Made by a program: the position numbers and the translations under genes
The notes under the pieces: model-generated
What the model was told of the DNA's origin: nothing
Database searches by the model: none
What the model saw: the letters and a program-made list of their open reading frames with translations, nothing else
DNA from: a virus
Length of the DNA: 64,000 bases
Virus record (IMG/VR): IMGVR_UViG_3300047548_001261
Location: 17,896-81,895 of that record
Direction: 5' to 3' (one strand)
Part shown: one piece after another, positions 2,468 through 64,000 of the stretch
Numbering within the stretch: the first letter of the stretch is position 1
Layout: each line of letters opens with the position of its first letter

Positions 2468-2541
2468 ACGTTCAAATAATGGTGTATAACGCCAAAATTA
2501 AACAGCCCGCCAGAAACTGAACTTAAATTAGGTACAATGAG

Positions 2542-19268: not shown

Positions 19269-19353
19269 GTTCCAGCGGAGCCGCGTCCGCTGGGTTGGTC
19301 GTGTTTCTGGAAGTCCAGTTCAGAGCGCACCGACCCTTAACGTGGCGTTATAC
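19266..19353 (-). repeat. attC-like site at the left edge of array 1
   Basis: A palindrome at 19272-19293 (arms CCAGCGGA and TCCGCTGG) follows the tail-gene stop codon. The region ends in CTTAACGTGGCGTTATAC with GTTATAC at 19347-19353. The left outer box is weak (CTTTAAG overlapping the TAA stop). The palindrome could instead be a terminator for the tail operon, but no T-run follows it. Confidence 0.55.
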
Positions 19354-19573
19354 AGCAATTTCCAGCGTCGCATTCCAAAAGTCCCGCCCCAAAGGCGCAA
19401 TCATGGCAATGCGGCTCTCCATCGTCATTAAAAATTCCGTCTTCCTCGCAATTTCCAGTTGGCTCGTCACACTTACAACAAAGTTGCCGCGTTCCAGGAT
19501 AATGCGTGGCATTCCATCGCTCATGGCTGCCCTGATCCATAGCGTGTCTTTTTCCACCAGGCCATTCGTTCAT
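19337..19573 (-). CDS. Cassette gene: zinc-ribbon-like protein, probably frameshifted
   Basis: This frame carries CCKC...C...CHDC, a four-cysteine arrangement with the EPTGNCEEDGIF segment I associate with small phage and cassette proteins. A second frame (19348-19557) gives MSDGMPRIILERGNF and stops inside the attC box, the usual place for a cassette stop. The natural protein probably uses the second frame first and the cysteine frame afterwards, so one or two indels are likely. Only the cysteine-rich part is well supported. Confidence 0.5.
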   Translation of the reverse strand: MNEWPGGKRHAMDQGSHERWNATHYPGTRQLCCKCDEPTGNCEEDGIFNDDGEPHCHDCAFGAGLLECDAGNCCITPR

Positions 19574-19586
19574 TTTTTGTTCCAGT

Positions 19587-19683
19587 GCATAACTCTTAGT
19601 TCAAGCGGACAATCCGCCATTTAACGCATTTGCGTGGTTAAATTTCAGTGTGTGGCGGCTTGCCACTTAACACGGCGTTATGC
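19587..19683 (-). repeat. attC site, 97 bp (copy A)
   Basis: GCATAAC at 19587-19593 and GTTATGC at 19677-19683 are reverse complements. Inside, TTCAAGCGGACAATCCGCC pairs with GGCGGCTTGCC...TTAAC. The TAA stop of the cassette to its right lies within the outer box. It is nearly identical to the site at 22225-22321. Confidence 0.85.
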
Positions 19684-19860
19684 ACCATATCCGCGTTCAA
19701 ATACTTCATATCCAAAATTCTTGCCAAATGGATTATCTTCAGCGCATTCTTTAGCCAATTCAGCCGTCTCGAATTTAGCTATTTCATCGCCGTCTTTATC
19801 CATTAGCGGTGTGTACCCGCCACTTTGTGTTGTTAGCATTACGAAAAAATCGCCTTCCAT
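19678..19860 (-). CDS. Cassette gene: hypothetical 60-aa protein
   Basis: The product (MEGDFFVMLTTQSGGYTPL...) is a small protein of a kind I recall from phages and integron arrays. It has an acidic helix in the middle (ETAELAKECAEDNP) and a hydrophobic, aromatic end. The stop codon TAA is contributed by the attC outer box. No function is known. Confidence 0.65.
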   Translation of the reverse strand: MEGDFFVMLTTQSGGYTPLMDKDGDEIAKFETAELAKECAEDNPFGKNFGYEVFERGYGA

Positions 19861-19878
19861 TTTTTATCTCCAGTTGAC

Positions 19879-19962
19879 GTATATCCCATCATTCAAGCCG
19901 ACGCTCTAAGCATCAGCTCATTGTTTAGAATCTATCCCGCGAGGCTTAATCTTGCGTTATAC
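19879..19962 (-). repeat. attC-like site with a degenerate outer box
   Basis: GTTATAC at 19956-19962 and the inner TTCAAGCCGACGC / GAGGCTTAAT pair are clear. The left RYYYAAC box is degraded (ATATCCCATC region), so the left boundary is approximate. Confidence 0.55.
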
Positions 19963-20241
19963 GCACTGGGTTTCGTCGATAGCGTAAACACTCACAGGTT
20001 TTTCTCCAAAATGCGGATGTGTGATCCGCTTTTGTGGCGGATACCCTGCCCACTTTCTGCGTATCGTTTTTGACTCATCACCACGCTTCGGGTACCCTAA
20101 TTTTATGTGGATTTCGTCGTATTCAGGCCCACGCAAGCGGCGTTCCCAATAGTCGTTTGTCGCGCGATATTCCTCTGTCTTTTCGCCTTTGGCTATCGCG
20201 TGCCAATATTCAGCCTTTAGATGCAACGTTAAAATACGCAT
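19957..20241 (-). CDS. Cassette gene: ASCH-domain protein
   Basis: The 94-residue product fits the ASCH (PUA-like) fold: an N-terminal LTLHLKAEYWHAIAKGEKT, then EEYRATNDYWERRL, then a beta segment with GYPKRGDESKTI. ASCH proteins are thought to bind RNA or modified nucleotides. The start ATG lies inside one attC box (GTTATGC on the coding strand) and the stop TAA inside the other, so the gene fills the cassette exactly. No binding partner can be inferred. Confidence 0.72.
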   Translation of the reverse strand: MRILTLHLKAEYWHAIAKGEKTEEYRATNDYWERRLRGPEYDEIHIKLGYPKRGDESKTIRRKWAGYPPQKRITHPHFGEKPVSVYAIDETQCV

Positions 20242-20337
20242 AACTCATAGCTCCAAGCGACGCAGTGCCGCGCCACGGTATTTTATTAAATTTAAGATAA
20301 GTGGCGCGGCACTGCGCTCCTGAGCATGGTGTTACGC
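20238..20337 (-). repeat. attC site, 100 bp with a long perfect stem
   Basis: GCATAAC at 20238-20244 and GTTACGC at 20331-20337 flank a 15-bp perfect inverted repeat (GCAGTGCCGCGCCAC and its complement) around an AT-rich loop. The right box has one deviation from GTTRRRY. Confidence 0.78.
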
Positions 20338-20627
20338 CCTTTTAAAATATGACTCAAATTCCGCTCGCCATGTATCCATGTATCCCTGTATTGCTCATAT
20401 AGCCCTAGCATCCAGTAAATTACATAAGCTTGCTCTTCTTCCGCTTTCTTTGGTATGTCGTGACCTAATTCACGCAAATTGCGCGATAGCTGTCCGCACC
20501 AAAAATTAGGGCGGCCTAGGATAAATCTTGTTTCGTTATTTAGTTCAATTGTTACTTTTTGGCACAACAATCCGGTCAACTCATGCCCACCGACCTGTGG
20601 CGGTTGTGTAGTTTTGGTTTGGTTCAT
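20292..20627 (-). CDS. Cassette gene: hypothetical 111-aa protein
   Basis: The core (FILGRPNFWCGQL, then a helical AEEEQAYVIYWMLGLYEQY segment) matches a small-protein type I recall from phage genomes and integron arrays, function unknown. The last 15 or so residues are encoded by the attC stem, so the natural C terminus is set by the recombination site. There is no membrane segment. Confidence 0.62.
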   Translation of the reverse strand: MNQTKTTQPPQVGGHELTGLLCQKVTIELNNETRFILGRPNFWCGQLSRNLRELGHDIPKKAEEEQAYVIYWMLGLYEQYRDTWIHGERNLSHILKGRNTMLRSAVPRHLS

Positions 20628-20684
20628 AGTTCATCGCTCCGTTAAGGTTTCGTGTCCGGCTGGCTGGTTAGCTTTGCGTTAGGT
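20622..20684 (-). repeat. Short attC-like site
   Basis: GTTAGGT at 20678-20684 is a good right box. The left part (TTCATAGTTCATCGCTCC) has only a weak RYYYAAC match. The length of about 60 bp matches the short class of attC sites. Confidence 0.5.
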
Positions 20685-21586
20685 ATACTCCGCAAAATAT
20701 GCGCTATTACATCCACAGTCCAGCCATTTCCTAGCATTCGTTTAGCCTGATTATCAGAGACAGAATCAGTGTACCCCTCTGGCACGGTTTGGAGTCTTTC
20801 GCACTCTCTGCGGGTATAGTGCCTGTACGGCAACCTTCTACCAAATGCGTCAGGATGTCTGCCTATCGGCATTGAAGTAAGTACATTATCTTTTGCCACT
20901 GTCGTTAAACAATTCGATTTATTCCTGTTACTTTCGCGCACCTCTAGGCATTGTGTTATCGGGATAGATTTATTGCAATCATCCCTAACTCCTCTTTCGT
21001 TTAATCGTCGCCCCAGAATAGTCGCTTTGTTTAGATACCTTCCCCGTATCGCGGCCGGTGAAATAACCTCAATATCATCCAAAATATCAACTAGGTTTAT
21101 GTTTTTATTCTCCGGCCGCTCGATATTTGGTATGTTTGTCCAATATAGCCTTACTCTGTTCTGTGCGGAAAGCAGCGAAGAATTTATCTCAATGGGCAAA
21201 ACCCCAAGTTTGTCACTTATTACATCTTGCCACTCCTTTTTCATTCCGACGTTTTCAAGTAGGAAATATTTTGGCTTGCATTCTTTCATCAGCCTAACAA
21301 ATTCAAAGAATAACTTACTACGCGGGTCTTCAAAATTAAGTTGCAGCCCGCTAGATGAGAACCCTTGGCACGGTGACCCTCCTATCAGCAAATCAATCTG
21401 TGGTAAGTCTGCCGCTACGACATTGACCACATTTCCAATCCTGATAATTTCTGGATAATTTGACTCTGATACCTTGATAGCGTGTTTATCTATTTCGCTG
21501 GAATAATAGGCTTTAACTGGTATTCCTGCGCGCTCCAAAGCTATACGGCCACAGGACATTCCGTCAAAAAGCGATAGTACGTTCAT
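20642..21586 (-). CDS. Cassette gene: orphan C5 cytosine DNA methyltransferase
   Basis: The 314-residue product has the C5-methylase motifs in order: SAM-binding LSLFDGMSCGRIAL (residues 4-17), catalytic GGSPCQGFSSSG (69-80, Cys73), LLENVG near 112, the target-recognition region in the middle, and a C-terminal MLGNGWTVDVIAHIL motif. It transfers a methyl group to cytosine in a sequence context that cannot be read here. No restriction endonuclease lies beside it, so it is an orphan methylase, likely protective for phage or host DNA. Its C terminus reads into the attC site. A second C5 methylase is encoded at 39288-40487. Confidence 0.88.
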   Translation of the reverse strand: MNVLSLFDGMSCGRIALERAGIPVKAYYSSEIDKHAIKVSESNYPEIIRIGNVVNVVAADLPQIDLLIGGSPCQGFSSSGLQLNFEDPRSKLFFEFVRLMKECKPKYFLLENVGMKKEWQDVISDKLGVLPIEINSSLLSAQNRVRLYWTNIPNIERPENKNINLVDILDDIEVISPAAIRGRYLNKATILGRRLNERGVRDDCNKSIPITQCLEVRESNRNKSNCLTTVAKDNVLTSMPIGRHPDAFGRRLPYRHYTRRECERLQTVPEGYTDSVSDNQAKRMLGNGWTVDVIAHILRSIPNAKLTSQPDTKP

Positions 21587-21618
21587 CCAATTTACCTATT
21601 CGTTGTAAGTAAAAACCA

Positions 21619-21682
21619 GCCAGACCCTGCGCTCCAGAGCGACGGCGGAAAAGCACCGCCGCGCCTGAACTATGCGTTGGGC
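21619..21682 (-). repeat. attC-like site
   Basis: GTTGGGC at 21676-21682 is a good right box; inside, TGCGCTCCAGAGCGACGGCGG pairs with CCGCCGCGCC. The left outer box is not clear, so the left boundary is approximate. Confidence 0.55.
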
Positions 21683-21683
21683 T

Positions 21684-21908
21684 TCAGCCTATATCGTCTA
21701 AGTAATCCTTGAGTGCAACATAAGCTCGCGCAAATGCCTCTTTTCTTGATGGTGAATTGTTAATTTTTATCTCTGCATCGCCCCATTTGCCAGGTTCTTT
21801 GCCTCTTCGGTCATAGACAAAAATATTCCAGTCTGTAATCCCGTTGTGACCAATTTCCAGTGCCAGCATTGATTGCTGGGCATATAAATCTAAAAAATCT
21901 TCTTCCAT
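21684..21908 (-). CDS. Cassette gene: hypothetical 74-aa protein
   Basis: A mixed alpha/beta acidic protein with an ITDWNIFVYDRRG strand-turn and a C-terminal helix (KEAFARAYVALKDYLDDIG). It is bounded by attC boxes on both sides. No family is recognised. Confidence 0.6.
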   Translation of the reverse strand: MEEDFLDLYAQQSMLALEIGHNGITDWNIFVYDRRGKEPGKWGDAEIKINNSPSRKEAFARAYVALKDYLDDIG

Positions 21909-21930
21909 ACAAGCCTCTTAATTATCTATA

Positions 21931-22052
21931 GCCCAACAAGTCAGTCAAGCTGGACGGTGCGCCTGTGGCGCGGGTTAAAGTCAGTGTTTCGGTAAGGGCC
22001 AGTGCGCTAATCAGGTTATTCCAGCGCACCGCCCCTTACCTCTGCGTTATGC
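21931..22052 (-). repeat. attC site, 122 bp
   Basis: GCCCAAC at 21931-21937 and GTTATGC at 22046-22052. Inner arms TCAAGCTGGACGGTGCGC and GCGCACCGCCCC can pair. This is the longest and one of the clearest sites in the array. Confidence 0.8.
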
Positions 22053-22054
22053 AC

Positions 22055-22222
22055 TTACATGTCCAGCAAGCTGCGCACAACATCAAGCAACGTATCAGCA
22101 ATCTTACCGTCTTTGCCGTAGTCGGCGGCAAGGCGGCGAAGGCGCTTATAGCAAGCTTCGTCAACTGCGTTGTTATCGTCTCTATCTTTCAGCAATTCTT
22201 CAATCAATTCTTCGTCTGTCAT
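22055..22222 (-). CDS. Cassette gene: small acidic helical protein, 55 aa
   Basis: Start taken at ATG 22222 (MTDEELIEELLKDRDD) because the longer frame would run into the attC site. The product is almost entirely helical and acidic at the N terminus, a type frequent in phage accessory regions. Function unknown. Confidence 0.58.
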   Translation of the reverse strand: MTDEELIEELLKDRDDNNAVDEACYKRLRRLAADYGKDGKIADTLLDVVRSLLDM

Positions 22223-22224
22223 GT

Positions 22225-22321
22225 GCATAACTCTTAGTTCAATCGGACAAGCCGCCATTTAACGCATTTGCGTGGTTAAATTTCAGTGTGTGGCGGCTTG
22301 CCGCTTAACACGGCGTTGGGC
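22225..22321 (-). repeat. attC site, 97 bp (copy B)
   Basis: GCATAAC at 22225-22231 and GTTGGGC at 22315-22321. Apart from a few substitutions it matches the 97-bp site at 19587-19683, including the TTTAACGCATTTGCGTGG centre. Confidence 0.85.
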
Positions 22322-22322
22322 C

Positions 22323-22622
22323 CTACCAGCGGCGGATATTCGCAAAATCCCAAAATTGTCGGCGACCCTCAGCATCGGTTGCGTCGCTCCATAGCAAAGC
22401 TATCCGCTGGCCCGTCATTGCCTCGACAACACCGTTAATTAGCCCGAGAGCTCCAACGGCGTATCCGCCGGTTACGCCTAGCTCATCAACCTGCACCGTC
22501 GGGTGATCTGCCAGCGCATGATTACACGGCACGCGGTTGCACATCAGCGCATGAATTGCGTTTCTGTCGTCGTTGTACGCGCCATTTAGTGTGTCGATGG
22601 CTTTTTGTATTTGCGTTGCCAT
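22323..22622 (-). CDS. Cassette gene: hypothetical 99-aa protein
   Basis: Helical N-terminal half with Cys (MCNRVPCNHALADHP), a Gly/Ala-rich centre (GVTGGYAVGALGLING) that could be weakly membrane-seeking, and an aromatic C terminus. Bounded by attC boxes. No family is recognised. Confidence 0.6.
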   Translation of the reverse strand: MATQIQKAIDTLNGAYNDDRNAIHALMCNRVPCNHALADHPTVQVDELGVTGGYAVGALGLINGVVEAMTGQRIALLWSDATDAEGRRQFWDFANIRRW

Positions 22623-22637
22623 ATTGGCCTCAATTTT

Positions 22638-22679
22638 GCCTAACGTTACATTCGAGCGGACGCGTGGTAAGCGCCGCTC
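22638..22679 (-). repeat. Truncated attC at the right edge of array 1
   Basis: GCCTAAC (22638-22644) is followed by TTCGAGCGGACGC and a pairing GCGCCGCTC, but no GTTRRRY box follows before the HNH remnant. The site is therefore incomplete, as if the array had been joined to phage DNA by an event that lost one half-site. Confidence 0.55.
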
Positions 22680-22681
22680 AT

Positions 22682-22819
22682 TTACCCAGCCCCGTTCGCC
22701 TGCACCTGTGAATTCAGGTTAAGGGTGCCTGCTAATCTTCCAGTGAGCTTATTCGTGCCCTGGTTAGCCTTCCAAGTGAACTCGCCGGTTTCCTGCTCGT
22801 AATTTACTAAATCTTTCAT
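22682..22819 (-). pseudogene. N-terminal remnant of an HNH endonuclease gene
   Basis: ATG 22819 overlaps the sbcC-like stop (ATGA) and opens 45 codons. They begin MKDLVNYEQETGEFTWKAN and contain a GRLAGTLN segment, the pattern that starts many phage HNH homing endonucleases. The frame then ends at TAA 22682-22684 where cassette DNA begins, before any HNH residues. The rest of the gene was apparently lost when the array arrived. Confidence 0.6.
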
Positions 22820-24849
22820 AGTTGTATAACATTCTCAGCCACATCATCTTCCCGGTGAGTTACCGTAAGCGACTGGCCACAAAAAGAGTTTAACGCAAGC
22901 ATACATTGCAGACTCACATCCTTATCCATATCGGCGGAAACTTCGTCCAGGATCAGGCAGTCCAGGTTCGTCGTCGATAACCTAACAAGCCCAAGCTTCA
23001 TTCCAAGACCCATCAAAGTTTTCTGCGCACCCGATGCCGACGACTTACTAAACACATGGTCATTCTCTTTATAAGAGATGGCGCCATTGTGGAGCAGCAC
23101 ACTTTGAATATCTCCCTGCGTCGCTGTCTTGGCAAACTCCGAAGCTACAGAGAAGATTACGTCGTTCGCCTCGGAGACAATACTTGCCCTGTGAGTAGAA
23201 AGAACCTGTACAATTTCGGCATAAAGCTGAGCTTTGTCGGAGTTTTCCTTTTCCAGTTCTAGCGCTTTCACATGTTTGGCAAAGGCGTCTTGTGCAGTCC
23301 GTAAAGCTTCCTGGAAAGTTCTTAGCTCAGAGGATGCAGCCTCGAATGCCTTGCGGTTATCGGTAGAGTCCTGACAAACCTTATTGAGTTGCGCCGTTAA
23401 CTCGCTGAGGTTTATCAACCCGCCGGCAGGTGGAGTCAATGCTGCAAACTCCGTCGTTAGCTGGGTAAAGTCGTCGTTCTCTCTCTGGGTCTGCTTATTT
23501 TGCTGGGTTTCCTCAGCGATTTTCTTTGATAATGCACGGGCTTTCGTCGTTAAATCATCAAGATTATGCCCAGGGTTTTTACCTAATGCGTCATTCGCTG
23601 ATGCTAAATCTTTCTTCGCCCTTTCGACCTTTTCCACATAGGATTCGTAAGCGTTGACAAGTTTAGTGTTGGCACGAACCGCTTCGCTTGCTTCAGAAAG
23701 CCTTGCTTTCGCTTCCGCAACCTTGGACTCTAGCCCAGGAATGCTATTTGAAGCCTCTGCCAAAATCTTTTCAAGCGTAGGTAATTCGTGGTAGCCGTCA
23801 TAAGGTCTCTTGCACTCAGGGCAAACAGCATCGTGTACCGCAGACCGAAGCCGCTTAACCTCGTCTTGCTTATCGCGCAAAACACCGTTTGCCGCAGTCA
23901 ACAAACCCCCAAGGTGTGCGGTTTCGTCCACGATTTCTTCAACCTTTTCGACAGGCTCTCTTTCCAACCTCGCGAGGATGTCCTTATAAGTTGAAACCTT
24001 TTCAAACTCCTTATCGTACTTCCGTTGATCTTTCTCTTGTTGATACAGACTAGCAACCTCAGCCTCGTCCTCGACAGTATCGAACAAAGGCTGCAAAGCT
24101 AACCCGTCCAAAGCTTTACGTTTGGTATCGTAAGCGTCCACAGCTTTGTTATGGTTCACTGCTTCCGTCAGCTGTTTCGTCAAGGATGCTGTTTGTGTGT
24201 CACATGCCTCGCTTGCAGCCTTAAGCCCGCTTAGCGCCTTTTCTGTGTCGGATATATCGCTGGCAAAGATGGTCCTGGCGGTAACATTTTCAGCCACATC
24301 GTCGTCGCTAAGAATGTCTGAAGCATAAGCCGTCGCCAAGGTTGTAAAGTTTGCCTCCCCCTTCCTGGCCGCCTTCACAACCTTGTCCAGCACATCCACA
24401 CCAATACAAGACTCGATAAACCGCTGAAGTTCAGACCCCTCCATGTCCAGCAAATGCTGAGGGGACCCTTGCGGGCTCATATAAATTTGATTAAATTTCG
24501 CTTTGGTAATGCCCAACTCTTCAACTATTGCCGCATTGACTGCTGTGTGACCTCTGACGAACGGCTCTGCCGAACCCCTTGCGATGTTACTCTCCTTGGA
24601 CGATCTCGTCACAGTGAGCCCTGAGCTCAGCGTAAGCACGATCTTGAAGTCCTTTGTGCCCCGACGAATTAAGTCTTTGGTGTCGCAAGGGGCGACGCTG
24701 TTACCGAACAGCGCAACATGAATCGCTTGTAACACCGTGGATTTGCCTTGGTAATTCTTGCCTTTGATGAGGTTTGACCCGTCGGCGAAGTCCAAGGACA
24801 ACTCACTGAAGCGTTTAAAATTGGTCAGGTGTAAAGATTTAAGCTTCAT
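22816..24849 (-). CDS. sbcC: SbcC/Rad50-like ATPase (phage gp46 type)
   Basis: The start is at ATG 24849 (MKLKSLHLTNFKRF), inside the end of the nuclease gene; the 15 upstream codons look non-coding. Of 677 residues, the N terminus carries Walker A GKNYQGKST (30-38), the middle is a long coiled coil broken near 344 by the zinc-hook CPEC, and the C terminus has the ABC signature SSASGAQ near 603 and Walker B LDCLILDEVSADMD near 631. It should pair with the SbcD-like nuclease encoded just upstream and process DNA ends for recombination-dependent replication. Length is close to phage gp46 and shorter than bacterial SbcC. Confidence 0.92.
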   Translation of the reverse strand: MKLKSLHLTNFKRFSELSLDFADGSNLIKGKNYQGKSTVLQAIHVALFGNSVAPCDTKDLIRRGTKDFKIVLTLSSGLTVTRSSKESNIARGSAEPFVRGHTAVNAAIVEELGITKAKFNQIYMSPQGSPQHLLDMEGSELQRFIESCIGVDVLDKVVKAARKGEANFTTLATAYASDILSDDDVAENVTARTIFASDISDTEKALSGLKAASEACDTQTASLTKQLTEAVNHNKAVDAYDTKRKALDGLALQPLFDTVEDEAEVASLYQQEKDQRKYDKEFEKVSTYKDILARLEREPVEKVEEIVDETAHLGGLLTAANGVLRDKQDEVKRLRSAVHDAVCPECKRPYDGYHELPTLEKILAEASNSIPGLESKVAEAKARLSEASEAVRANTKLVNAYESYVEKVERAKKDLASANDALGKNPGHNLDDLTTKARALSKKIAEETQQNKQTQRENDDFTQLTTEFAALTPPAGGLINLSELTAQLNKVCQDSTDNRKAFEAASSELRTFQEALRTAQDAFAKHVKALELEKENSDKAQLYAEIVQVLSTHRASIVSEANDVIFSVASEFAKTATQGDIQSVLLHNGAISYKENDHVFSKSSASGAQKTLMGLGMKLGLVRLSTTNLDCLILDEVSADMDKDVSLQCMLALNSFCGQSLTVTHREDDVAENVIQL

Positions 24850-25867
24850 TTGATTCTTCCAGTAATTGTTTGAATACCTCTTGGGCGTCGGCACTCAAGC
24901 TATCGGCAATCTTTTCGACCCAGTGAAGTTTGGGGCCATCTTCATCCATAATCACGTCTGTCTCAGCTTTCAGGGACCGAGTATTGGGCTTGATTGCGAT
25001 CAAGGTTTCGGACGTTTTATACCACTCGGCAATCCTGGAGTTGATGGCAATGGTCTCACCGATGTCCACGGTGCCGGTTATTTCGATGAACTGTAAAGGG
25101 GCGTCCAGCGGATAGGCAAGGAAATCTTTGTAGTCGAGGGACCTGAACCGACCATCTACCGGCCACACACACTCCTTTGTCCCATCTACGGAAATAAACT
25201 TATCCGTCATCTCCCCAAACGACATCGGTAAGACGGACCCCAACATCGTTACACCTATCATTGGCTCCCGATAATTGTGCTCATGGCCGGAGATGATCGC
25301 GTCGAAATGCTTCATTGCGTGACCGCCGTGCTCGTCAGACATCAGGTGTGCTGCTACATTAGGCCTTAAATAATTTTCCGTCTCTGTCCCAGGTTGGTCG
25401 CCAAAGTTGCAGTGAAGTACCAGGATGTTGTACTTTTCAGTGTTCGGAAAGTTTTTGGCGCTTGCCAGCATCGTATCAAACTTTTCTTGGGTCAACTGGT
25501 GAGGTAGCAGGGTGTACTTTGTGGACTCAGTTTCAAAGAAGTAAGGTTGTTCCCAAGCAATTGTGCAACCGGTTTTGCGAAGTAGATTTACTGCCGATTC
25601 TTTTTCCGTGTTGTTGGATACATCGTGATTCCCTGAAAGGACGACTTCGCATGACGCGGCAAACATGTAACCTTCGACAAAGGTCTCTGAGTTGCAAGAG
25701 AAGCTGTCGAATAAATCCCCAGCCTGGATAATGCTTCCCTTGTACTCTTCGGTAAACCATATTAAAAGGTCTTTCTTGTACTGCGCCCACCGTGCCGCAG
25801 TTTTGGTTGATGTGAAAGGGAAAGGTTTTCCCAAGTGGATGTCGCCGACTATTGTTATGTTATTCAT
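24839..25867 (-). CDS. sbcD: SbcD/Mre11-like nuclease (phage gp47 type)
   Basis: The calcineurin-type phosphoesterase motifs are present in order: GDIHLG (8-13), GDLFD (about 50), GNHD (about 79) and GHEH (about 193), which bind two metal ions. The gene overlaps the SbcC-like gene by 11 bp, so the two subunits are coupled. A palindromic operator lies about 30-46 bp upstream of the ATG. Expected role: exonuclease/endonuclease half of the SbcCD complex acting on DNA ends and hairpins. Confidence 0.92.
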   Translation of the reverse strand: MNNITIVGDIHLGKPFPFTSTKTAARWAQYKKDLLIWFTEEYKGSIIQAGDLFDSFSCNSETFVEGYMFAASCEVVLSGNHDVSNNTEKESAVNLLRKTGCTIAWEQPYFFETESTKYTLLPHQLTQEKFDTMLASAKNFPNTEKYNILVLHCNFGDQPGTETENYLRPNVAAHLMSDEHGGHAMKHFDAIISGHEHNYREPMIGVTMLGSVLPMSFGEMTDKFISVDGTKECVWPVDGRFRSLDYKDFLAYPLDAPLQFIEITGTVDIGETIAINSRIAEWYKTSETLIAIKPNTRSLKAETDVIMDEDGPKLHWVEKIADSLSADAQEVFKQLLEESNEA

Positions 25868-55879: not shown

Positions 55880-56742
55880 ATCGCCCTTAATCTTTCCAAT
55901 ATTTCAGGCATCAAGTTATGAACAATGGCAACGAACTCTGCGTTTGCCCTATTCAATGTAACGTTATATGATTTATGTATTTTTTGCTTATAAATACAAT
56001 AATTTATCACATAACTGTCTATAAATTTTGCAATCCAGTTTACTTTGTTTGTCGATGTCGGCAATGACTGATCTGTCATTTTCTGTGAGCCAGTTGTTCA
56101 TTGGTTTTGGTTTTTCGGCTTCAATGTCGCGGGGGAGGTACACAAAAACATATTGGATAATTGAGTTTTTTAACGATTTTATAATTCTCATTTCATCATG
56201 AGTCGTTTGAATTATATTGATAGAGTGCTGTAACTCATCATAATTATCTCGTTCAAAATCATAATTTGCATCAATATAGGCATTACAAATGCTCAGCCAG
56301 CGTTGCAACACGTTGCGGACTATATCAATACCGCCAGCGGCAGAAAAATAGCAAACGCGGGATATTGCAGCACCCGCTGACGGCGATACATAAACCCCCG
56401 CGTCCTCGTCATATTCGGGTGCAAATCCGGCTATAAGTTGGCTATTTACAATTGATTGTGTGTATTTTCCGGCGCGTAACAAAAAATCTAACTCGTAGGC
56501 ACTGAATGTTACCTGGCAATTTTCTATTTTTTCGCCGTTGCGCCACAACTTTCCAGCTTTAATAAATGCGGCATCTAAAACTGGAATGCCACGGAATTCT
56601 TGTTTTTTTTTTTTTTTAAATCCGACTTTCTCCATTCATCAAATTTTTGTGGCAATTCAATATTGTTAGTTGCCGCATAAATAGCCACGATGGCTTCAAT
56701 AGTCTCAATTGTTAAAGCTTGTTCAATTTGGTTTAAATACAT
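55876..56742 (-). pseudogene. AT-rich accessory gene broken at an A15 run and again near its end
   Basis: ATG 56742 (MYLNQIEQALTIETIEAIV) is preceded by GGAG; an upstream ATG at 56805 follows a TCCCCTAGGGGA element. The protein reads to KSDLKKKK at a run of 15 A (56603-56617). The +1-base frame then continues EFRGIPVLDAAFIKAGKLW and on for 200 residues to about 56040. A second shift there would add KFIDSYVINYCIYKQ to a stop at 55876. If both shifts are errors, one protein of about 285 residues results: mixed alpha/beta, Tyr/Ile/Asn-rich, no known family. The base composition is more AT-rich than its neighbours, suggesting recent arrival. Confidence 0.5.
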
Positions 56743-56807
56743 GATTTTCTCCAGCACCTGTAGCCCGATGCGCAGCATAATATGAGTTGTTGCAATCTCG
56801 AACATAT

Positions 56808-57066: not shown

Positions 57067-57099
57067 TTTGTTCTCCTGGTTTACTTTGAATGTAGGTAT

Positions 57100-57128
57100 A
57101 TTATAACCCTTTTGAGGTAGTATGTCAA
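57100..57128 (-). promoter_or_regulatory. Strong sigma70 promoter of the repeated family
   Basis: TTGACA (57123-57128), 17-bp spacer, TATAAT (57100-57105), on the - strand; only a few bases differ from the promoter at 61292-61320. Confidence 0.88.
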
Positions 57129-57604
57129 ATCGGGCGATGAGTGTGCTGCTTTTCTTGTGCCTGTTTATAGGCTTGTGCAGCAAGTTCTGGGGTGTCGAAA
57201 TTGCCAAGGAAGATTTGCTTACCTTGGACTTTGATTCTCGCTACCCATTTCTTCCAACGTTTATGAAATGTGACACCCTTATGCCCAGAAGTGTTATTTC
57301 GGTTTTTCCATCTATTTTGCCCATTCTCAGAATGGGTTACTTGTCGCAAGTTCTTTATCCAATTATGGTGTCGGACTTGATCTTCGTGATCAAGTATTCC
57401 TATCGGCCACACCCCATAAACATAAAGCCAAGCAAGTCTGTGTGCCTTATATTTCTTGCCTTTGATGCTTATGTGAATATACTTTTGCGAGGGACTTCCG
57501 GCAATTTGCCCAACTTTCGAGCGCCCCGTGCTTACCTTCCATGTAAAGATTCCGGTTTCTTCGTCATAGTGGAGCAGTTCTTTTAATTCAGCTTGAGTTA
57601 ACAT
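57125..57604 (-). CDS. HNH endonuclease with AP2-type domain
   Basis: 159 residues: N-terminal LLHYDEETGIFTWKVSTGRS, HNH core ILDHEDQVRHHNWIKNLRQV, and a C-terminal AP2 segment (GHKGVTFHKRWKKWVARIKV, then FLGNFDTPELAAQAYKQA). A free-standing homing endonuclease. Its stop lies inside the -35 box of the following promoter. Confidence 0.88.
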   Translation of the reverse strand: MLTQAELKELLHYDEETGIFTWKVSTGRSKVGQIAGSPSQKYIHISIKGKKYKAHRLAWLYVYGVWPIGILDHEDQVRHHNWIKNLRQVTHSENGQNRWKNRNNTSGHKGVTFHKRWKKWVARIKVQGKQIFLGNFDTPELAAQAYKQAQEKQHTHRPI

Positions 57605-57786
57605 GGCTTAAGTCGTTTTCCTGTTTTCCTTGCATCAAGACATGTAACAATCCGCTGCGACGTAACAATCTCTATATCGGTCTTGCGCGGCCCGATCACA
57701 AAGAACCTGGAGGCGGCGGATGGACGTTTGGTTGGTCTGAGTTGCAAGGAACGTGCTCTTGCGTCTGCGGCGTGGTTTATTGGCAT
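57598..57786 (-). CDS. Hypothetical basic 62-aa protein
   Basis: Arg-rich (ARSLQLRPTKRPSAASRFFV) with a strand-helix C terminus. Overlaps both neighbours by 7-10 bp. No known family. Confidence 0.45.
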   Translation of the reverse strand: MPINHAADARARSLQLRPTKRPSAASRFFVIGPRKTDIEIVTSQRIVTCLDARKTGKRLKPC

Positions 57787-57998
57787 GATTGAAGCTCCTT
57801 AATTCTGGTTGCCCACTCCTCGCGGGTTTTAGTTTCGTAGCCCACAGACTCCATCTCGGCCTGAACCGTATCTATTGCTTGCTGCCACCTTGCCTTGGCT
57901 TCGGGGGTGGCAAGAGGGTTGGATGGTGGTGGAGGGTTGTTGTGGAGTTGTTCAAAGTGTTGGGTTAGGTCGAGCGAGTCTTTCATTGCTTTGTTCAT
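57777..57998 (-). CDS. Hypothetical 73-aa protein
   Basis: Helical, with a Pro-rich loop (NNPPPPSNPLATPEA). It is the last phage-type gene before cassette array 2 and has the TCCACTAGGGGA leader element in front. Confidence 0.52.
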   Translation of the reverse strand: MNKAMKDSLDLTQHFEQLHNNPPPPSNPLATPEAKARWQQAIDTVQAEMESVGYETKTREEWATRIKELQSCQ

Positions 57999-58015: not shown

Positions 58016-58062
58016 AGGTTTCGGATTTTTAGAGTCGGAGGCTGCTTACTTTTGCGTTATGC
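58016..58062 (-). repeat. Partial attC-like site at the left edge of array 2
   Basis: GAGGCTGCTTACTTTTGCG followed by GTTATGC at 58056-58062. Only the right half of a site is clear; the left half is replaced by the phage leader. Confidence 0.5.
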
Positions 58063-58260
58063 ACCAATAATCCGCTTAGCTTCTAAAACGGCATCGTATA
58101 ATGCACTTTCATCGCTGTTTAGCTCATGCTTCCTGATTATCGGCCGAGCAGCTTCAATCAGTGTATTTATCGCTTTCTCAAGTTGTAGTTCACGGCAGGT
58201 TCTGGCTTTCGTGATTTGCGACAATTCTAAGTAAAGTTTATCTAGTGTTTCGGTTTCCAT
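58057..58260 (-). CDS. Cassette gene: helical 67-aa protein
   Basis: Start at ATG 58260 (METETLDKLYLELSQITKAR); the upstream in-frame codons read through attC-like DNA. The product is all helical. TAA stop lies in the GTTATGC box. No function known. Confidence 0.58.
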   Translation of the reverse strand: METETLDKLYLELSQITKARTCRELQLEKAINTLIEAARPIIRKHELNSDESALYDAVLEAKRIIGA

Positions 58261-58303
58261 TATGTATCCTATTTTTGACGGATAACCCGTCATCGTTGGT
58301 TGG

Positions 58304-58585
58304 TTAGTTTTTGCAGCTGTCATTAAAAGGGATAGCTGACATATCGCCGCTATATGGATACCATACTGATACACAATTTAATCTGCTTGTGCTGTTGTCG
58401 GCTTTGCAAACATAGGCTTCTTCAGTGCAAACATGAATGCCAATTGTCTTCAGATAGTCTTGCAGCTCTTTGGCAACTTCAAGATAAAAAGATAGCCTTT
58501 GGCTATATGAGTCTGTTTTAAGGCTTATGTAGTTGCCGTTTTGTGTTACGCTGCCATGTGGCAGTTGTATTCTTTGTGCGTTCAT
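58304..58585 (-). CDS. Cassette gene: hypothetical 93-aa protein
   Basis: Start at ATG 58585 (MNAQRIQLPHGSVTQNGNYI). Beta-rich with a helix (SFYLEVAKELQDYLKTIG) and two Cys. TAA within a GTTAGTT box. Family unknown. Confidence 0.55.
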   Translation of the reverse strand: MNAQRIQLPHGSVTQNGNYISLKTDSYSQRLSFYLEVAKELQDYLKTIGIHVCTEEAYVCKADNSTSRLNCVSVWYPYSGDMSAIPFNDSCKN

Positions 58586-58678
58586 TGCTTTCCTCAGGTT
58601 AAGCCGCGTCTGTGCGGCAGGGGATTTTGTTGCCATAAAATAAGCCGTCATCACTTTAAGCTTGTTGGTATAAACTAC

Positions 58679-59413
58679 CTACTTAGGTAGTAAGTAACAC
58701 CAGTCTGTTATTTCACAATAGACTAAATCTTCGGCGTCCGGCACATAATTTTTATCCATGCTATAGCCGTGAGACTCTGGGATTAGATTGCACCCTTTTT
58801 CTGTAATATCCCAAACCATTGCAGTATATACGTCATTACCAAACCTATCTAAGACAGTATATCTGGTAGCAACTACTTCAACTATGTCTTTATGTTTGGG
58901 TTTACATGAATAGATCCAATAAGGAACATCTCGACCAGTCCATTTATGCAAAGCTGCTTTATCTTTTCGATAGTATTCTCTGTAACATTCTACAGGGTCA
59001 GAAGAGATTTTACAGTAGTCAGGCATAGCTAGGGCTAGTGGTGTAAAACCTTTATTAACCAACCCCTTATTAGCGTAGACTCGTAAAGCAGTTTTATAAA
59101 TGTTAAAACTGCCTAGTTCTAGTTTAGATATACTTAAATGGATTTTATCTGAATCCCATCTATGAAATCTTTCTATATCTAATTCCTTCATTAGACGATA
59201 TACATAACAGAAATTGTCAAAGCTTTCTCTTACCCACACACTACATGGATGATTAACATGCGTAGTTTTATAAGGCGCAACCTGCTCTCCAGCAAGCACA
59301 TTAACAGCAGTACATAGAAGTTGGGCGGATTCTAATATCATTTTAACTACATGTTTATCTGTGTGGTATTGTGCAGCAAGCCTAGGGTCTTTGTCTAAAT
59401 AGAATATATTCAT
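58679..59413 (-). CDS. Phage protein of the MNIFYLDKDP type, 244 aa
   Basis: Start at ATG 59413 (MNIFYLDKDPRLAAQYHTDK), where the conserved opening begins. Next come HVVKMILESAQLLCTAVNVL, HVNHPCSVWV and a Tyr/Lys-rich body. Proteins with this opening occur in many phages and are sometimes annotated as pyrimidine-dimer glycosylases; I do not see the T4 DenV active-site sequence, so the activity is uncertain. The gene is AT-rich and lacks clear attC boxes on its own edges, so it may be a passenger in the array. Confidence 0.6.
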   Translation of the reverse strand: MNIFYLDKDPRLAAQYHTDKHVVKMILESAQLLCTAVNVLAGEQVAPYKTTHVNHPCSVWVRESFDNFCYVYRLMKELDIERFHRWDSDKIHLSISKLELGSFNIYKTALRVYANKGLVNKGFTPLALAMPDYCKISSDPVECYREYYRKDKAALHKWTGRDVPYWIYSCKPKHKDIVEVVATRYTVLDRFGNDVYTAMVWDITEKGCNLIPESHGYSMDKNYVPDAEDLVYCEITDWCYLLPK

Positions 59414-59539
59414 TGATGTTTTCCTACTGCGCTTCGAGTAAAAATCGTATATTATTCTATAGCACACGCAGTTGTGTACTATCAAATCGTTCTTTGTAAA
59501 TTCACTTAAGAAATGTCCACGGTTTCTATAGCGCATTGT

Positions 59540-59578
59540 TTAAAATATGTATTGGCGCGGCTTAATTACGCGTTATAC
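59540..59578 (-). repeat. attC-like site in array 2
   Basis: GGCGCGGCTTAATTACGC ends in GTTATAC (59572-59578), which supplies the TAA of the 70-aa gene. The matching left half is not clear. Confidence 0.55.
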
Positions 59579-59785
59579 GGCACTATCTGAACTCAACCAC
59601 TCGTCAATGTATTCATCTACAAGCTTAGCAAACCCTTCTGCTTCTTCTTTTGTTTTGCATTTTGTAGCCAATGCAAGCCCATGTGGGTATTGATTTGTTT
59701 CTATTGGGATTAGCCTGACATAGTGGATAAGTCCACCATCTTCTGATGTGCTATATACAGATGTATGCTTACCTTTAAACGCCAT
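59573..59785 (-). CDS. Cassette gene: hypothetical 70-aa protein
   Basis: Beta-rich N terminus (HTSVYSTSEDGGLIHYVRLI) and a C-terminal helix (EEAEGFAKLVDEYIDEWLSS). The stop is inside the attC-like box. Unknown family. Confidence 0.58.
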   Translation of the reverse strand: MAFKGKHTSVYSTSEDGGLIHYVRLIPIETNQYPHGLALATKCKTKEEAEGFAKLVDEYIDEWLSSDSAV

Positions 59786-59827
59786 ACTTCCTCCGAAGCT
59801 ACGTATAAATCTTCTCTCAATCTGACC

Positions 59828-60070
59828 TCAGCTTTGAGCACGATGCAGTTTAATTGCTCGTACTCTCCACGCCTCATATTGCAGCGGGTCAAGCCGCTGT
59901 GTGCCACCGTCACCGTACATCAACTGACTATTTCTACCTTCTTGCCAACGAAGGTTTGCAGTGGCAATCATCGTTTTTAGTGCGCCGATTTTCGTGTCGT
60001 GCAGCGACTCCAGAGAAAAGCCTGACTCAAAAATGCAGTCGCACCACTCAAATGCAAAAACATTGCTCAT
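59828..60070 (-). CDS. Hypothetical 80-aa protein in array 2
   Basis: MSNVFAFEWCDCIFESGFSL opening and an IKL-type end (EAWRVRAIKLHRAQS), a short protein type I recall from phages and cassettes. ATGA overlap with the following 68-aa gene shows they are translated together, unusual inside a one-gene-per-cassette array. Confidence 0.55.
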   Translation of the reverse strand: MSNVFAFEWCDCIFESGFSLESLHDTKIGALKTMIATANLRWQEGRNSQLMYGDGGTQRLDPLQYEAWRVRAIKLHRAQS

Positions 60071-60273
60071 GCTTTCACCTGTTTAAGGTTAATTTCACTG
60101 ATACCCAAGGTTTTAAGTCCGCCTTGGCTTGTTTCTACAGTGACCCATACTTCTGGAATGGCGTGTGGACTATCGCGCTTGTCAGCCATAACCGCCACGA
60201 TTTCGCATGGGTCGCTTTCAAATTTTGTATGGCTAAAACTACCAGTTTTTTTTTGTAGCATGTGTAAGTGCAT
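60067..60273 (-). CDS. Hypothetical 68-aa protein in array 2
   Basis: Acidic beta-rich protein with FESDPCEIVAVMADKRDS. A different upstream frame (MITIETALLGR, from about 60307 after AGGGGG) may be the true beginning, joined by a one-base shift; the evidence is not strong. Overlaps the 80-aa gene by 4 bp. Confidence 0.5.
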   Translation of the reverse strand: MHLHMLQKKTGSFSHTKFESDPCEIVAVMADKRDSPHAIPEVWVTVETSQGGLKTLGISEINLKQVKA

Positions 60274-60334
60274 GTTCGGCCCAGCAAGGCTGTTTCGATT
60301 GTTATCATTTCTAACCCCCTTCGATAGGTTATTG

Positions 60335-60346
60335 TCCCCTAGGGGA
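60335..60346 (-). promoter_or_regulatory. Perfect palindromic leader element TCCCCTAGGGGA
   Basis: Fully palindromic copy of the repeated leader element, 60 bp ahead of the 68-aa frame and about 30 bp ahead of its alternative start. Confidence 0.45.
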
Positions 60347-60370
60347 CGTAGATTGGGTTGGTTGGGAGCT

Positions 60371-60577
60371 CTAGTATAGTAGACCTGCCTCCACTAATTG
60401 TTCAATAATAATAAGCATGTTCCGTGAATCGTTTGCAGTGTGTTCTCGTTTAGGTTGTGCTTTAATTGCAGTTAGTTTATCAAACAGCCTGCTAGCGGTA
60501 TTGTCTTCACATGAAGCAAACCCGCTCAGATGAATTAGTTCATCCAGTTCTTCTTCTGTTAATTCAACAATTCTCAT
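60371..60577 (-). CDS. Hypothetical acidic 68-aa protein
   Basis: Start at ATG 60577 (MRIVELTEEELDELIHLSG), helical and acidic, a common phage small-protein type. It lies beside the last GTTRRRY box of array 2. Function unknown. Confidence 0.55.
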   Translation of the reverse strand: MRIVELTEEELDELIHLSGFASCEDNTASRLFDKLTAIKAQPKREHTANDSRNMLIIIEQLVEAGLLY

Positions 60578-60597
60578 CACCTTATCTCACTTGTGGG

Positions 60598-60639
60598 TCA
60601 AATCGGTCTGTGGGCGGTCGCCTTACCGTGGCGTTATAT
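60598..60639 (-). repeat. attC-like site at the right edge of array 2
   Basis: GGGCGGTCGCCTTACCGTGG followed by GCGTTATAT (box 60633-60639). It lies just past the stop of the 60649-61257 gene, so that gene marks the phage side of the junction. Confidence 0.55.
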
Positions 60640-60648
60640 TTATTTTCA

Positions 60649-61257
60649 CTAACTGCTATGCCACGACATATGTCCGCCGCAATCCCGGCATTCGTAATTT
60701 ACACAGTAGCTTCCATACTCCTGACTACCGCATGAGGTGCACTGATACAACGTGTTTGACGGGCAATCTGTCCATCTGCAACCACCGCCATATTCGTTTG
60801 GCTCTCGCCCACAATAAGGGCAATTGTCGTTGTCGTAGTCAACGTCGTCGCCATCGTCGATAGGGTCGATCAGGACTTGGATGTCACGCTGATCGCTTAA
60901 CTCTCGTGATACTTCCGACAAGGATTCGGAAACCGAATCGTCAAAGACTTTTTGGTGGGCTTCTTCCGGGGAGTCGGCTTCAGCTTCCGTTCTAAAATTG
61001 TCTTCAGCATCCTGCCAAAGGTTAGGATTAATCGCTTCAGCGATCAAGACCGCCTCCTTGCGTTGTTCGTCCGTGAAAATGTCAAAACCTGACGATATTA
61101 TTTGTCCAGCATTATCTTTAATCCCGAAACAATAATGATCGGCGGAAGCGCCAAGCCAACCGCCATTGGCAACATGTGAGAGCAGCCTTTCGGCGGCAAT
61201 GGCCGCCATTAAAGAAAATTTATTTTCTATTCTGATTTGGTTAATTCGCTTTTTCAC
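60649..61257 (-). CDS. Zinc-binding phage protein, paralogue of the 56830-57066 gene product
   Basis: Start at GTG 61257 after AAGGAAACC, because upstream codons are the promoter. The first half (MAAIAAERLLSHVANGGWLG) is unknown; the middle EADSPEEAHQKVFDDS...ELSDQRDIQVLIDPI matches the 78-aa protein at 56830-57066; the C-terminal 60 residues hold CPYCG...CRW...C and CTSCG...C...CRDCGG, two zinc-ribbon pairs. It probably binds nucleic acid or protein through them. Confidence 0.68.
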   Translation of the reverse strand: MKKRINQIRIENKFSLMAAIAAERLLSHVANGGWLGASADHYCFGIKDNAGQIISSGFDIFTDEQRKEAVLIAEAINPNLWQDAEDNFRTEAEADSPEEAHQKVFDDSVSESLSEVSRELSDQRDIQVLIDPIDDGDDVDYDNDNCPYCGREPNEYGGGCRWTDCPSNTLYQCTSCGSQEYGSYCVNYECRDCGGHMSWHSS

Positions 61258-61291
61258 TGAGGTTTCCTTGGTTTGTTTTGAATGTAGGTAT

Positions 61292-61320
61292 ATTATATCC
61301 CTTTTGAGGTAGTATGTCAA
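61292..61320 (-). promoter_or_regulatory. Strong sigma70 promoter of the repeated family
   Basis: TTGACA (61315-61320), 17-bp spacer, TATAAT (61292-61297) on the - strand, ahead of the zinc-binding gene. Confidence 0.88.
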
Positions 61321-61499
61321 ATCGGGCGAGGCGTCTTCCGCAAAGCGTCATCGTAATTGGCAAGGGCGACTTTAGCAGCTTTCTTAGTGGCTGGACTCTT
61401 TGCCTCTTGGTAGGCGCGAACGGCTTCAATGAACACATCTTTTTCAAGACAATCGATCATGGTTTCTTGCAAGACTTCGGTATCTAATTTGTTAAACAT
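61317..61499 (-). CDS. Hypothetical 60-aa protein
   Basis: Helical, Lys/Ala-rich (AYQEAKSPATKKAAKVALAN). It ends in the -35 box of the promoter and shares one base with the stop of the 396-aa gene, so it is coupled to that gene. Confidence 0.58.
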   Translation of the reverse strand: MFNKLDTEVLQETMIDCLEKDVFIEAVRAYQEAKSPATKKAAKVALANYDDALRKTPRPI

Positions 61500-62689
61500 T
61501 ATTCAATTCCCTTCGATAATATTTTATTGATTACAAGGTCGAATCCGACCTGCATAATTTCGTCCAGGATTCCGTGCTCACGCAGGATTGCAAGTAAGGT
61601 GACATGATTGCCTTCCTTTAACATTATCTCCCGTAAGGCGCGGCCCTCGCCGTGTGTGATGGCATACAGAAGCCCTCGGTGAAACAGTCTCGGGCTGTTC
61701 AGGCTGTTCTTATAAAAGCCTTGGCCGGCAAAGGTAACTTCGTCCTGTCGGGAGTCCGTCGGGAACCACATTCCTGATCGGTAAGATGTCATTATCGGTA
61801 GCCCGTACCGGCGATGGATTCCTTCCATGAATCGCTCCAACGCGCGGAACGCCTTCGGTAAGGCGTGCAAATCCGAATACATAGACTGTACGCCTTCGGT
61901 AAACTCTTTGGCAGTTAATGGCTTACCTATTCCAAGGTGGGCAAGGGTATCAGGGAAGATGGCCTTAGCGGCTTCGTAGCGAGTTGTTCCGACCCCTAGT
62001 GGACGATTGTAGTGCCCAAAACCTAATACGTCGTACAGACTGGTATAAACCGCCATATCGGGCAAGGATGGCTTGCCTTGTACCTCTCGCCTGCTGTTGA
62101 CTATGTCCGACTGGTGTTTCTCAAATTTAGCAAAGAGTTCCGCATCATTTGTAAAGTCCTCGAACTCTAGTAGGTAGTGGGATTCAATCCTTGAAGAAAA
62201 ATTTTCTAAGTGAGAGATGTCAGGGTACAGTTTGGACAAGTCGTATTCGGTTTCACAAAGGTAAACTCTATCTACCGTGTTCTGGGATAGTGCCTCAATT
62301 AAATCTCTGCGGTAAAGGCGTAAATAAACTAAGTACCTGGACGCTTCGCGGGCGTGTTGTCGGGCTTTATTGAAGAGGGCGACTGGTTTGGAAGACTTTA
62401 CAAAGGTTTTGCCATCGTGCCTGCCTCGTACAGTAATCGCATCGAGGCGCAGGGCTAGGGATATTTCCTCGAGAGTGTGCCCTAGGTAGTCCTCAAGGTC
62501 TTTGGGTGGGAGCCTGTACATTGGGTAAGCGTTATTTATTCCTGCACTATTCCTAAGAATATTTAGTTCCTTGGGTGTTGGCCCTGTCCTTTTAGAGGGT
62601 TTCCCTCTGGATGTGGTTTCAGGGATATCGAGGGTGCAGTAAAAATCCTCAGGGGTTGGTTTACGGAATAAGTTGGCTTGTCTGGGCAT
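61499..62689 (-). CDS. Unknown 396-aa protein at the head of the - strand block
   Basis: The largest unknown in the right part of the window. It is basic in the first 40 residues (RKPTPEDFYCTLDIPETTSR), helical in the middle and ends in an amphipathic helix (VGFDLVINKILSKGIE). No nuclease, helicase or DNA-binding motif is evident. Its position next to a non-coding, repeat-bearing region suggests a replication-initiation or control role, but that is inference. Confidence 0.6.
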   Translation of the reverse strand: MPRQANLFRKPTPEDFYCTLDIPETTSRGKPSKRTGPTPKELNILRNSAGINNAYPMYRLPPKDLEDYLGHTLEEISLALRLDAITVRGRHDGKTFVKSSKPVALFNKARQHAREASRYLVYLRLYRRDLIEALSQNTVDRVYLCETEYDLSKLYPDISHLENFSSRIESHYLLEFEDFTNDAELFAKFEKHQSDIVNSRREVQGKPSLPDMAVYTSLYDVLGFGHYNRPLGVGTTRYEAAKAIFPDTLAHLGIGKPLTAKEFTEGVQSMYSDLHALPKAFRALERFMEGIHRRYGLPIMTSYRSGMWFPTDSRQDEVTFAGQGFYKNSLNSPRLFHRGLLYAITHGEGRALREIMLKEGNHVTLLAILREHGILDEIMQVGFDLVINKILSKGIE

Positions 62690-63602: not shown

Positions 63603-64000
63603 TTAAGCGGCTTGAGATAACTCTGCATTAACTAAAACACTGTAAATGGTATCGAGTAAATCCGCATTGACAAAGCCGCGCGCTAATAATGCCGTGACGA
63701 TTGCCGCCTTTTCAGGTGCGCTACATTCCAACTCTATTATTGAGTTTACGACAAGATTAACATCGTGTTTTTGCTTACCGGATAGCGCCTTGTAGGTTGT
63801 ATCGGCGAGAGACTCTAAGGTGTCAATGGCAAGCTGTTTTTTGCTTATAACTTTTTCAGTGCTGGTATCAACGTCAGTGCTGGTATCAACGTCAGTGCTG
63901 GTATCAACGTCAGTGCTGGTATCAACGTCAGTGCTGGTATCAACGTCAGTGCTGGTATCAACGTCAGTGCTGGTATCAACGTCAGTGCTGGTATCAACGT
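63603..64000 (-). CDS. 3' part of a repeat-containing protein, cut by the window edge
   Basis: An open frame runs from the edge to TAA 63603-63605. It starts with eight copies of the six-residue unit STDVDT, encoded by an 18-bp tandem repeat, and continues with a helical region (LAIDTLESLADTTYKALSGK, then a segment ending LVNAELSQAA). The function is unknown; the start lies beyond the window. Confidence 0.6.
   Translation of the reverse strand, partial: VDTSTDVDTSTDVDTSTDVDTSTDVDTSTDVDTSTDVDTSTDVDTSTEKVISKKQLAIDTLESLADTTYKALSGKQKHDVNLVVNSIIELECSAPEKAAIVTALLARGFVNADLLDTIYSVLVNAELSQAA
63857..64000. repeat. Eight tandem copies of an 18-bp unit
   Basis: CAGTGCTGGTATCAACGT repeats eight times to the window edge without visible change; the array may continue outside. 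The unit is six codons long. Confidence 0.93.

Follow-up and report, generated by a model that had tools for sequence, protein, structure and literature searches.

Half attC sites beside small genes in a phage accessory region: probable relics of integron cassettes

The window analysed, a stretch of 64,000 nucleotides (nt), covers bases 17896–81895 of the 81,895-base virus record IMGVR_UViG_3300047548_001261, and positions given below are window positions. An earlier note on this DNA had placed a second, decayed cassette-like array in the accessory region, which we refer to as array 2. We suggest that this block (57.8–61.3 kb) probably contains relict integron cassettes that have lost the 3′ halves of their attC sites, are no longer movable and are probably transcribed within a phage operon. 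At least three of its genes keep the 5′ half of an attC site (R″-L″) at or just after the stop codon, two of them with half of the loop, and the 3′ half (L′-R′) is missing. The earlier note's recognition of degraded cassette material is well supported. The word “array” is generous, however, because only 3 of about 10 block genes carry a 5′ half-site, one gene is common in phages and one is a partial paralogue, and the decay consists in the loss of 3′ halves rather than in uniform ageing.

Detection of three attC 5′ halves

The reference for the search was array 1, an intact cassette array in the same window (Table 1). Eight array-1 R″-L″ sequences aligned without gaps as R″ + GC + NNN + L″, and a 22-nt matrix was built from these alone. 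As the earlier note had proposed, the attC search of array 1 was extended to array 2. Across the 81.9-kb record the matrix recovered exactly three further sites, with R″ starting on the minus strand at 58062 (26.1 bits, E < 0.01), 59578 (20.8 bits, E 0.01) and 60639 (18.8 bits, E 0.02), the E-values being derived from 100 dinucleotide shuffles of the record. The next match reached 13.1 bits (E 0.72). These sites lie about 36 kb from array 1 and share its orientation, in agreement with the earlier note.

The same three sites were found with a second matrix, whose training set was confined to L097 and L101 (IMG/VR 3300036980_000686 and _000952), two viral arrays obtained from a degenerate pattern search of viral contigs. 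Scores were 26.1 bits for 59578 (E < 0.01), 24.0 bits for 58062 (E < 0.01) and 18.3 bits for 60639 (E 0.03). A hidden Markov model (HMM) of array 1 and L097/L101 gave E-values of 0.0066, 0.034 and 0.0017 for these sites. When both matrices were run on 796 kb of control DNA from other viruses and genomes, no match reached 15 bits. Neither matrix was trained on array 2, although the 22-nt frame was chosen with the array-2 sites already in view; a strict pattern and a separate HMM were set with all sites in view, and the main argument rests on the two matrices. An R″-spacer-L″ arrangement in the family consensus is present at all three positions. They are real attC 5′ halves, of the same attC family as array 1 and the two other viral arrays.

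Three of the four boxes named in the earlier note (plus strand, about 58054, 59571 and 60632) correspond to these half-sites, but their motif is not GTTRRRY. The R″ boxes of 58062, 59578 and 60639 read GTTATGC, GTTATAC and GTTATAT, a GTTATRY-type variant that is also present in array 1 and the related viral arrays. As in array-1 genes, the stop codons of genes 59573–59785 and 58057–58260 fall within R″. Half-site 60639 and an intact L097 attC have TAAGGCGACCGCC in common. Literal GTTRRRY occurs on the plus strand of 58016–60639 only at 58598 and 59320, and its frequency in the window is near chance (162 against 137±13), so it was abandoned as a marker and the 22-nt half-site matrices were used instead. 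The fourth box, 58598–58604 (plus strand), was absent from the top matches of the 5′ and 3′ matrices and was rejected as part of an attC.

Array 1 is a genuine cassette array of eight small genes; most of its roughly nine attC sites have both halves. Its gene 19957–20241 has a homologue (57% identity) between attC-like sites on L085, a contig from a Verrucomicrobia metagenome-assembled genome. L085 carries a chromosomal integron whose integrase scores 425 bits (cut-off 265), and the homologous cassette gene beside that integrase links array 1 to a real integron. In a complementarity scan sites c, f, g and h paired with their own 3′ mates; the top-scoring partner of site b was not its own 3′ arm, which was shown by an anchored-arm search. 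The last attC (19257–19353) runs into the last codons of the convergent phage gene 17391–19268 and marks a sharp boundary of the array.

Missing 3′ halves and the fate of the genes

The earlier note's observation that the mate half-sites are mostly lost was borne out at all three positions. No sequence complementary to R″-L″ was found within about 200 nt downstream of 58062, 59578 or 60639, and a 3′-half matrix gave only −2.3 to 4.0 bits in the 150 nt following each site. A complementary L′-spacer-R′ half and a bottom-strand hairpin were both absent, folding being no better than in shuffled sequences (z of +0.4, −1.1 and +1.2, against −1.4 to −6.4 in array 1). The search for complete attC sites by anchored complementary arms recovered array-1 sites and some chance pairs, and none in array 2. 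Rfam yielded no match. The loop half of 60639 matches array-1 attC b/h (p 0.002) and that of 59578 matches attC g (p 0.003), and in both cases the subsequent 3′ part shows no such match; the loop match at 58062 was not significant. What remains at the array-2 sites is approximately the 5′ half of an attC hairpin.

A single plausible 3′ half, overlooked in the earlier note, was found in the block, at 59824–59803, and it is suggestive only. It scored 16.0 bits (genome-wide E 0.30; p 0.005 in its own scan interval, with 11 intervals tested) and was also the top match outside array 1 with an independent 3′ matrix (14.1 bits, E 0.36). Since gene 59573–59785 ends in half-site 59578 and has this candidate upstream, it is bounded like a complete cassette, and of all block genes it is the likeliest to represent an almost complete former cassette. 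Its relatives, at about 60% identity, are in Caulobacter jumbo phages, which is neutral on an integron origin. In L097 and L101 the 5′ and 3′ halves follow each other in almost strict alternation, so a set of three 5′ halves and one weak 3′ half is abnormal.

The suggestion that array 2 is the older of the two did not hold. Its surviving 5′ halves score 18.8–26.1 bits, like array-1 sites in leave-one-out scoring (15.9–26.7 bits), and an age order of the two arrays based on point mutations was rejected because the 5′ halves are equally conserved. As they are also as intact as those of array 1, the loss of the 3′ halves looks abrupt and not gradual. The attC hairpin may have been the site of a deletion or of slippage, or a break may have occurred during capture. 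Integron integrases act on a folded attC in which R″ and L″ are paired with R′ and L′, and the array-2 sites should for this reason be inactive. The half-sites would be unable to form the folded bottom strand, leaving the genes immobile as cassettes.

The former cassettes would then have joined a phage operon. A near-identical perfect sigma-70 promoter with a conserved spacer occurs in three copies on the minus strand (61320–61292, 57128–57100 and 55879–55851), where none is expected, and the block genes are probably read from the 61.3-kb copy, as in fused cassettes. The genes themselves may derive from an integron of a host common to these phages. Repeated acquisition, as proposed in the earlier note, is plausible: arrays 1 and 2 have no gene in common, and on that ground the idea that array 2 arose by duplication of array 1 within the genome was rejected. 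A single acquisition followed by rearrangement is also conceivable.

Origin of the block and alternative explanations

The block is AT-rich, as had been noted, with a GC content of 0.40 at 58–60 kb. Array-2 genes average a GC of 0.413 and a third-position GC of 0.362, compared with 0.487 and 0.545 in core genes, and in codon use and GC they depart from core genes as array-1 genes do. Several points weigh against a cassette origin, nonetheless. The genes neighbouring array 2 are likewise shifted in GC and codon use, so that the comparison of composition suggested by the earlier note gives weak evidence. Several block genes lack a half-site, and one of them, gene 58679–59413, is common in phages. 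For none of the array-2 genes was a homologue found that lies in an integron. Lastly, a similar half-site at 2484 lies between tail-region genes with no cassette gene evident there. The latter, which the earlier note had also overlooked, was found by the strict pattern, and an HMM built without it gives it an E of 1.7; its loop half matches array-1 attC b/h (p 0.002) and is similar also to the L101 2804 site. Integron relics remain the probable explanation in our assessment. A fuller version, in which cassette origin was followed by polar domestication, with phages keeping the gene and the 5′ attC half, dropping the 3′ half and wiring the gene into an operon, is tentative and somewhat doubtful.

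The 2484 half-site favours, a little, the entry of genes one by one over truncation of an array in place. Under such single-gene capture no array was ever present here, and genes came singly from host or phage arrays through illegitimate breaks inside attC hairpins. This would suit half-sites scattered among non-cassette genes, the fourth, solitary one being far off on the other strand, and the phage encodes an SbcCD-like pair, a type of nuclease that cuts hairpins. However, three half-sites in 2.6 kb and in one orientation are more simply explained by a single broken array, and breaks should leave both types of half where only one 3′ half was seen; we consider single-gene capture unlikely. 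It is quite improbable that these are complete attC sites in which, as at array-1 site e and the L101 sites, the 3′ arm falls within the following reading frame, where coding constraint has made it diverge. The 3′ arms of L101 at 2703, 2517 and 1335 (minus strand) do lie within the next reading frame, the cassette gene starting inside the attC loop. The distances from R″ to the following ATG (about 60 nt at 60639 and about 65 nt at 58062) resemble that of site e (57 nt), and a weak 3′ match occurs 56 nt after 60639 (4.0 bits, p 0.094). Yet the L101 arms within reading frames score 15.8–31.2 bits, against at most 4.0 after array-2 sites, where neither complementarity nor a hairpin is seen.

An intergenic or translation-leader element of the phage, of non-integron origin and merely resembling attC halves, would fit the position of the motif between a stop and the next start codon, and its presence in the tail region at 2484. 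But in array 1, L097 and L101 the identical motif is one half of attC sites that are complete and pair, and it is absent from the control DNA, which makes this explanation very improbable. Chance matches to a short degenerate box are almost certainly not the answer. The near-random frequency of GTTRRRY and the chance-like box at 58598 agree with chance, whereas each of the three half-sites has an E of <0.01–0.03 per genome with two independently trained matrices, and all three are on one strand, at gene ends, with no control matches. For three of the four boxes chance is refuted.

Known systems, related arrays and neighbouring features

Clusters of attC sites without an integrase (CALINs) have been described in phage genomes (Qi et al. 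2023, PMC9892861). Array 1 fits this type and is a further example of such a cluster in a phage. Array 2 resembles it in having attC-derived sites beside small genes in a phage without integron integrase, no match to TIGR02249 being found across the 81,895-base record, itself possibly incomplete. Unlike a CALIN, which has two or more complete attC sites, array 2 has none, only 5′ halves and one doubtful 3′ half; it is not a CALIN because these defining sites are missing. In class 1 integrons partial loss of attC produces fused, co-transcribed cassettes, with replication slippage at the hairpin or illegitimate recombination given as the cause, and a truncated GES-1 attC was not an integrase substrate (PMC4670013, PMC8876359 section 2.4.4). 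The likeness here is that only the 5′ edge of the attC site persists behind the upstream gene, and that the next gene is joined on, in what would be an operon-like unit. A kept 5′ edge, a lost remainder and an intact next gene are found at three junctions. The known cases differ in being resistance cassettes in integrons with an integrase, whereas array 2 has several such sites in a phage accessory region. Fused-cassette remnants with truncated attC sites, carried by a phage, would be a better description of array 2 than CALIN.

We found no description of such remnants in phages among the open-licence papers searched. The novelty is modest, since phage attC clusters and truncated attC sites are each known and only their combination is new. 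Integron cassettes are known in a few phages; their later fate is not. If polar domestication is true, solitary 5′ attC halves, such as that at 2484, would be scars of integron-derived phage genes after the arrays have gone. If half-attC scars mark fixed cassettes, the integron share of phage accessory genes could be estimated, and finders that require complete attC sites would miss genes marked by half-sites. Because this genome has both an intact array and a truncated set, and L097 and L101 belong to the same attC family, capture and loss of mobility can be compared. Phage-borne attC sites may be commoner than reported.

L097 and L101 come from one metagenome and carry intact arrays without an integrase, with attC sites 86–88% identical to array-1 b/h. 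They share the attC family of array 2 and the subtype TAAGGCGACCGCC, but their sites are nearly all complete, and no gene is common to them and array 2. Searches for the source integron were negative: exact attC words detected no host integron in viral or genome contig collections, and an intact L101 attC as query gave no match in phages and two short, chance-like matches only in plasmids. Searches for array-2 proteins found none in plasmids and, without a positive control, none in 388 genomes from the phylum to which the L085 host belongs.

The virus record encodes a DNA polymerase that shares about 30% identity with the enzymes of SHOU24-type Vibrio phages. The phage and viral collections yielded no close relative: megablast gave none, and no closely related viral contig was found with the polymerase, the 61499–62689 protein, the 59573–59785 protein or a joined query of three small proteins. 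Gene 58679–59413 has relatives in 354 phage records and lies after half-site 59578; it was probably not borne on a cassette. The middle of gene 60649–61257 is 60% identical over 53 amino acids to the resident phage gene 57018–56860. Searches of Pfam, PHROGs, NCBIfam, phages and plasmids gave nothing convincing for the remaining block genes.

Table 1. Positions of the half-sites, genes and other features (window positions unless a contig is named; aa, amino acids)
Feature	Position	Strand	Remarks
attC 5′ half	60597–60639	−	R″-L″ at 60639–60618 and half loop; 10 nt past stop of gene 60649–61257
attC 5′ half	59530–59578	−	R″-L″ at 59578–59557 and half loop; R″ holds stop of gene 59573–59785
attC 5′ half	58041–58062	−	R″-L″; R″ holds stop of gene 58057–58260
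Candidate attC 3′ half (L′-R′)	59803–59824	−	17 nt upstream of start of gene 59573–59785
Gene, 202 aa	60649–61257	−	Upstream of half-site 60639; middle is paralogue of gene 57018–56860
Orphan gene	60371–60580	−	Start about 60 nt after R″ 60639
Two small orphan genes	60067–60273 and 59828–60070	−	Without half-sites
Gene, 70 aa	59573–59785	−	Between candidate 3′ half 59824–59803 and real 5′ half 59578
Phage gene, phrog_624	58679–59413	−	Pyrimidine-dimer glycosylase/endonuclease V-like annotations; E 4e-48
Orphan gene	58304–58585	−	Without half-site
Orphan gene, 67 aa	58057–58260	−	Ends in half-site 58062
Orphan gene	57777–57998	−	Start about 65 nt after R″ 58062
HNH-AP2 homing-type endonuclease gene	57125–57604	−	Downstream block edge; HNH_3 E 2.7e-11, AP2 E 6.2e-11
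Perfect consensus sigma-70 promoter, TTGACA-17-TATAAT	61292–61320	−	12/12 matches; reads into block
Direct repeat, 80 nt, carrying promoter	61262–61341		Partner 57070–57149, 86% identical; flanks block
Array 1	19257–22702	−	Intact cassette array, used as reference
Solitary attC 5′ half	2484–2530	+	Between gene 1559–2467 and small open reading frame (ORF) upstream of tape-measure-sized gene
Viral-contig arrays	L097:1–3170 and L101:1–3030		Carry DNA methyltransferase cassettes

An HNH-type endonuclease gene adjoins each array, as a truncated relic (22682–22819) at array 1 and as the intact HNH-AP2 gene at array 2, and a role of these genes in cassette acquisition is possible. The SbcC/SbcD-like pair (AAA_23 and Metallophos domains; 22816–25867, minus strand) lies immediately upstream of array 1. 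A run of about 17 T at 56600–56620, at the start of ORF 55988–56635 and with a second frame (56575–56805) overlapping, is possibly a homopolymer frameshift or a sequencing error. An 18-nt tandem repeat encoding VDTSTD occupies 63820–64000 and reaches the end of the record. Other viral contigs also have attC-like sites of this general type, at L094:9371, L098:11221, L103:2152 and L104:4381 and at four places in L100, and both halves seem to be present.

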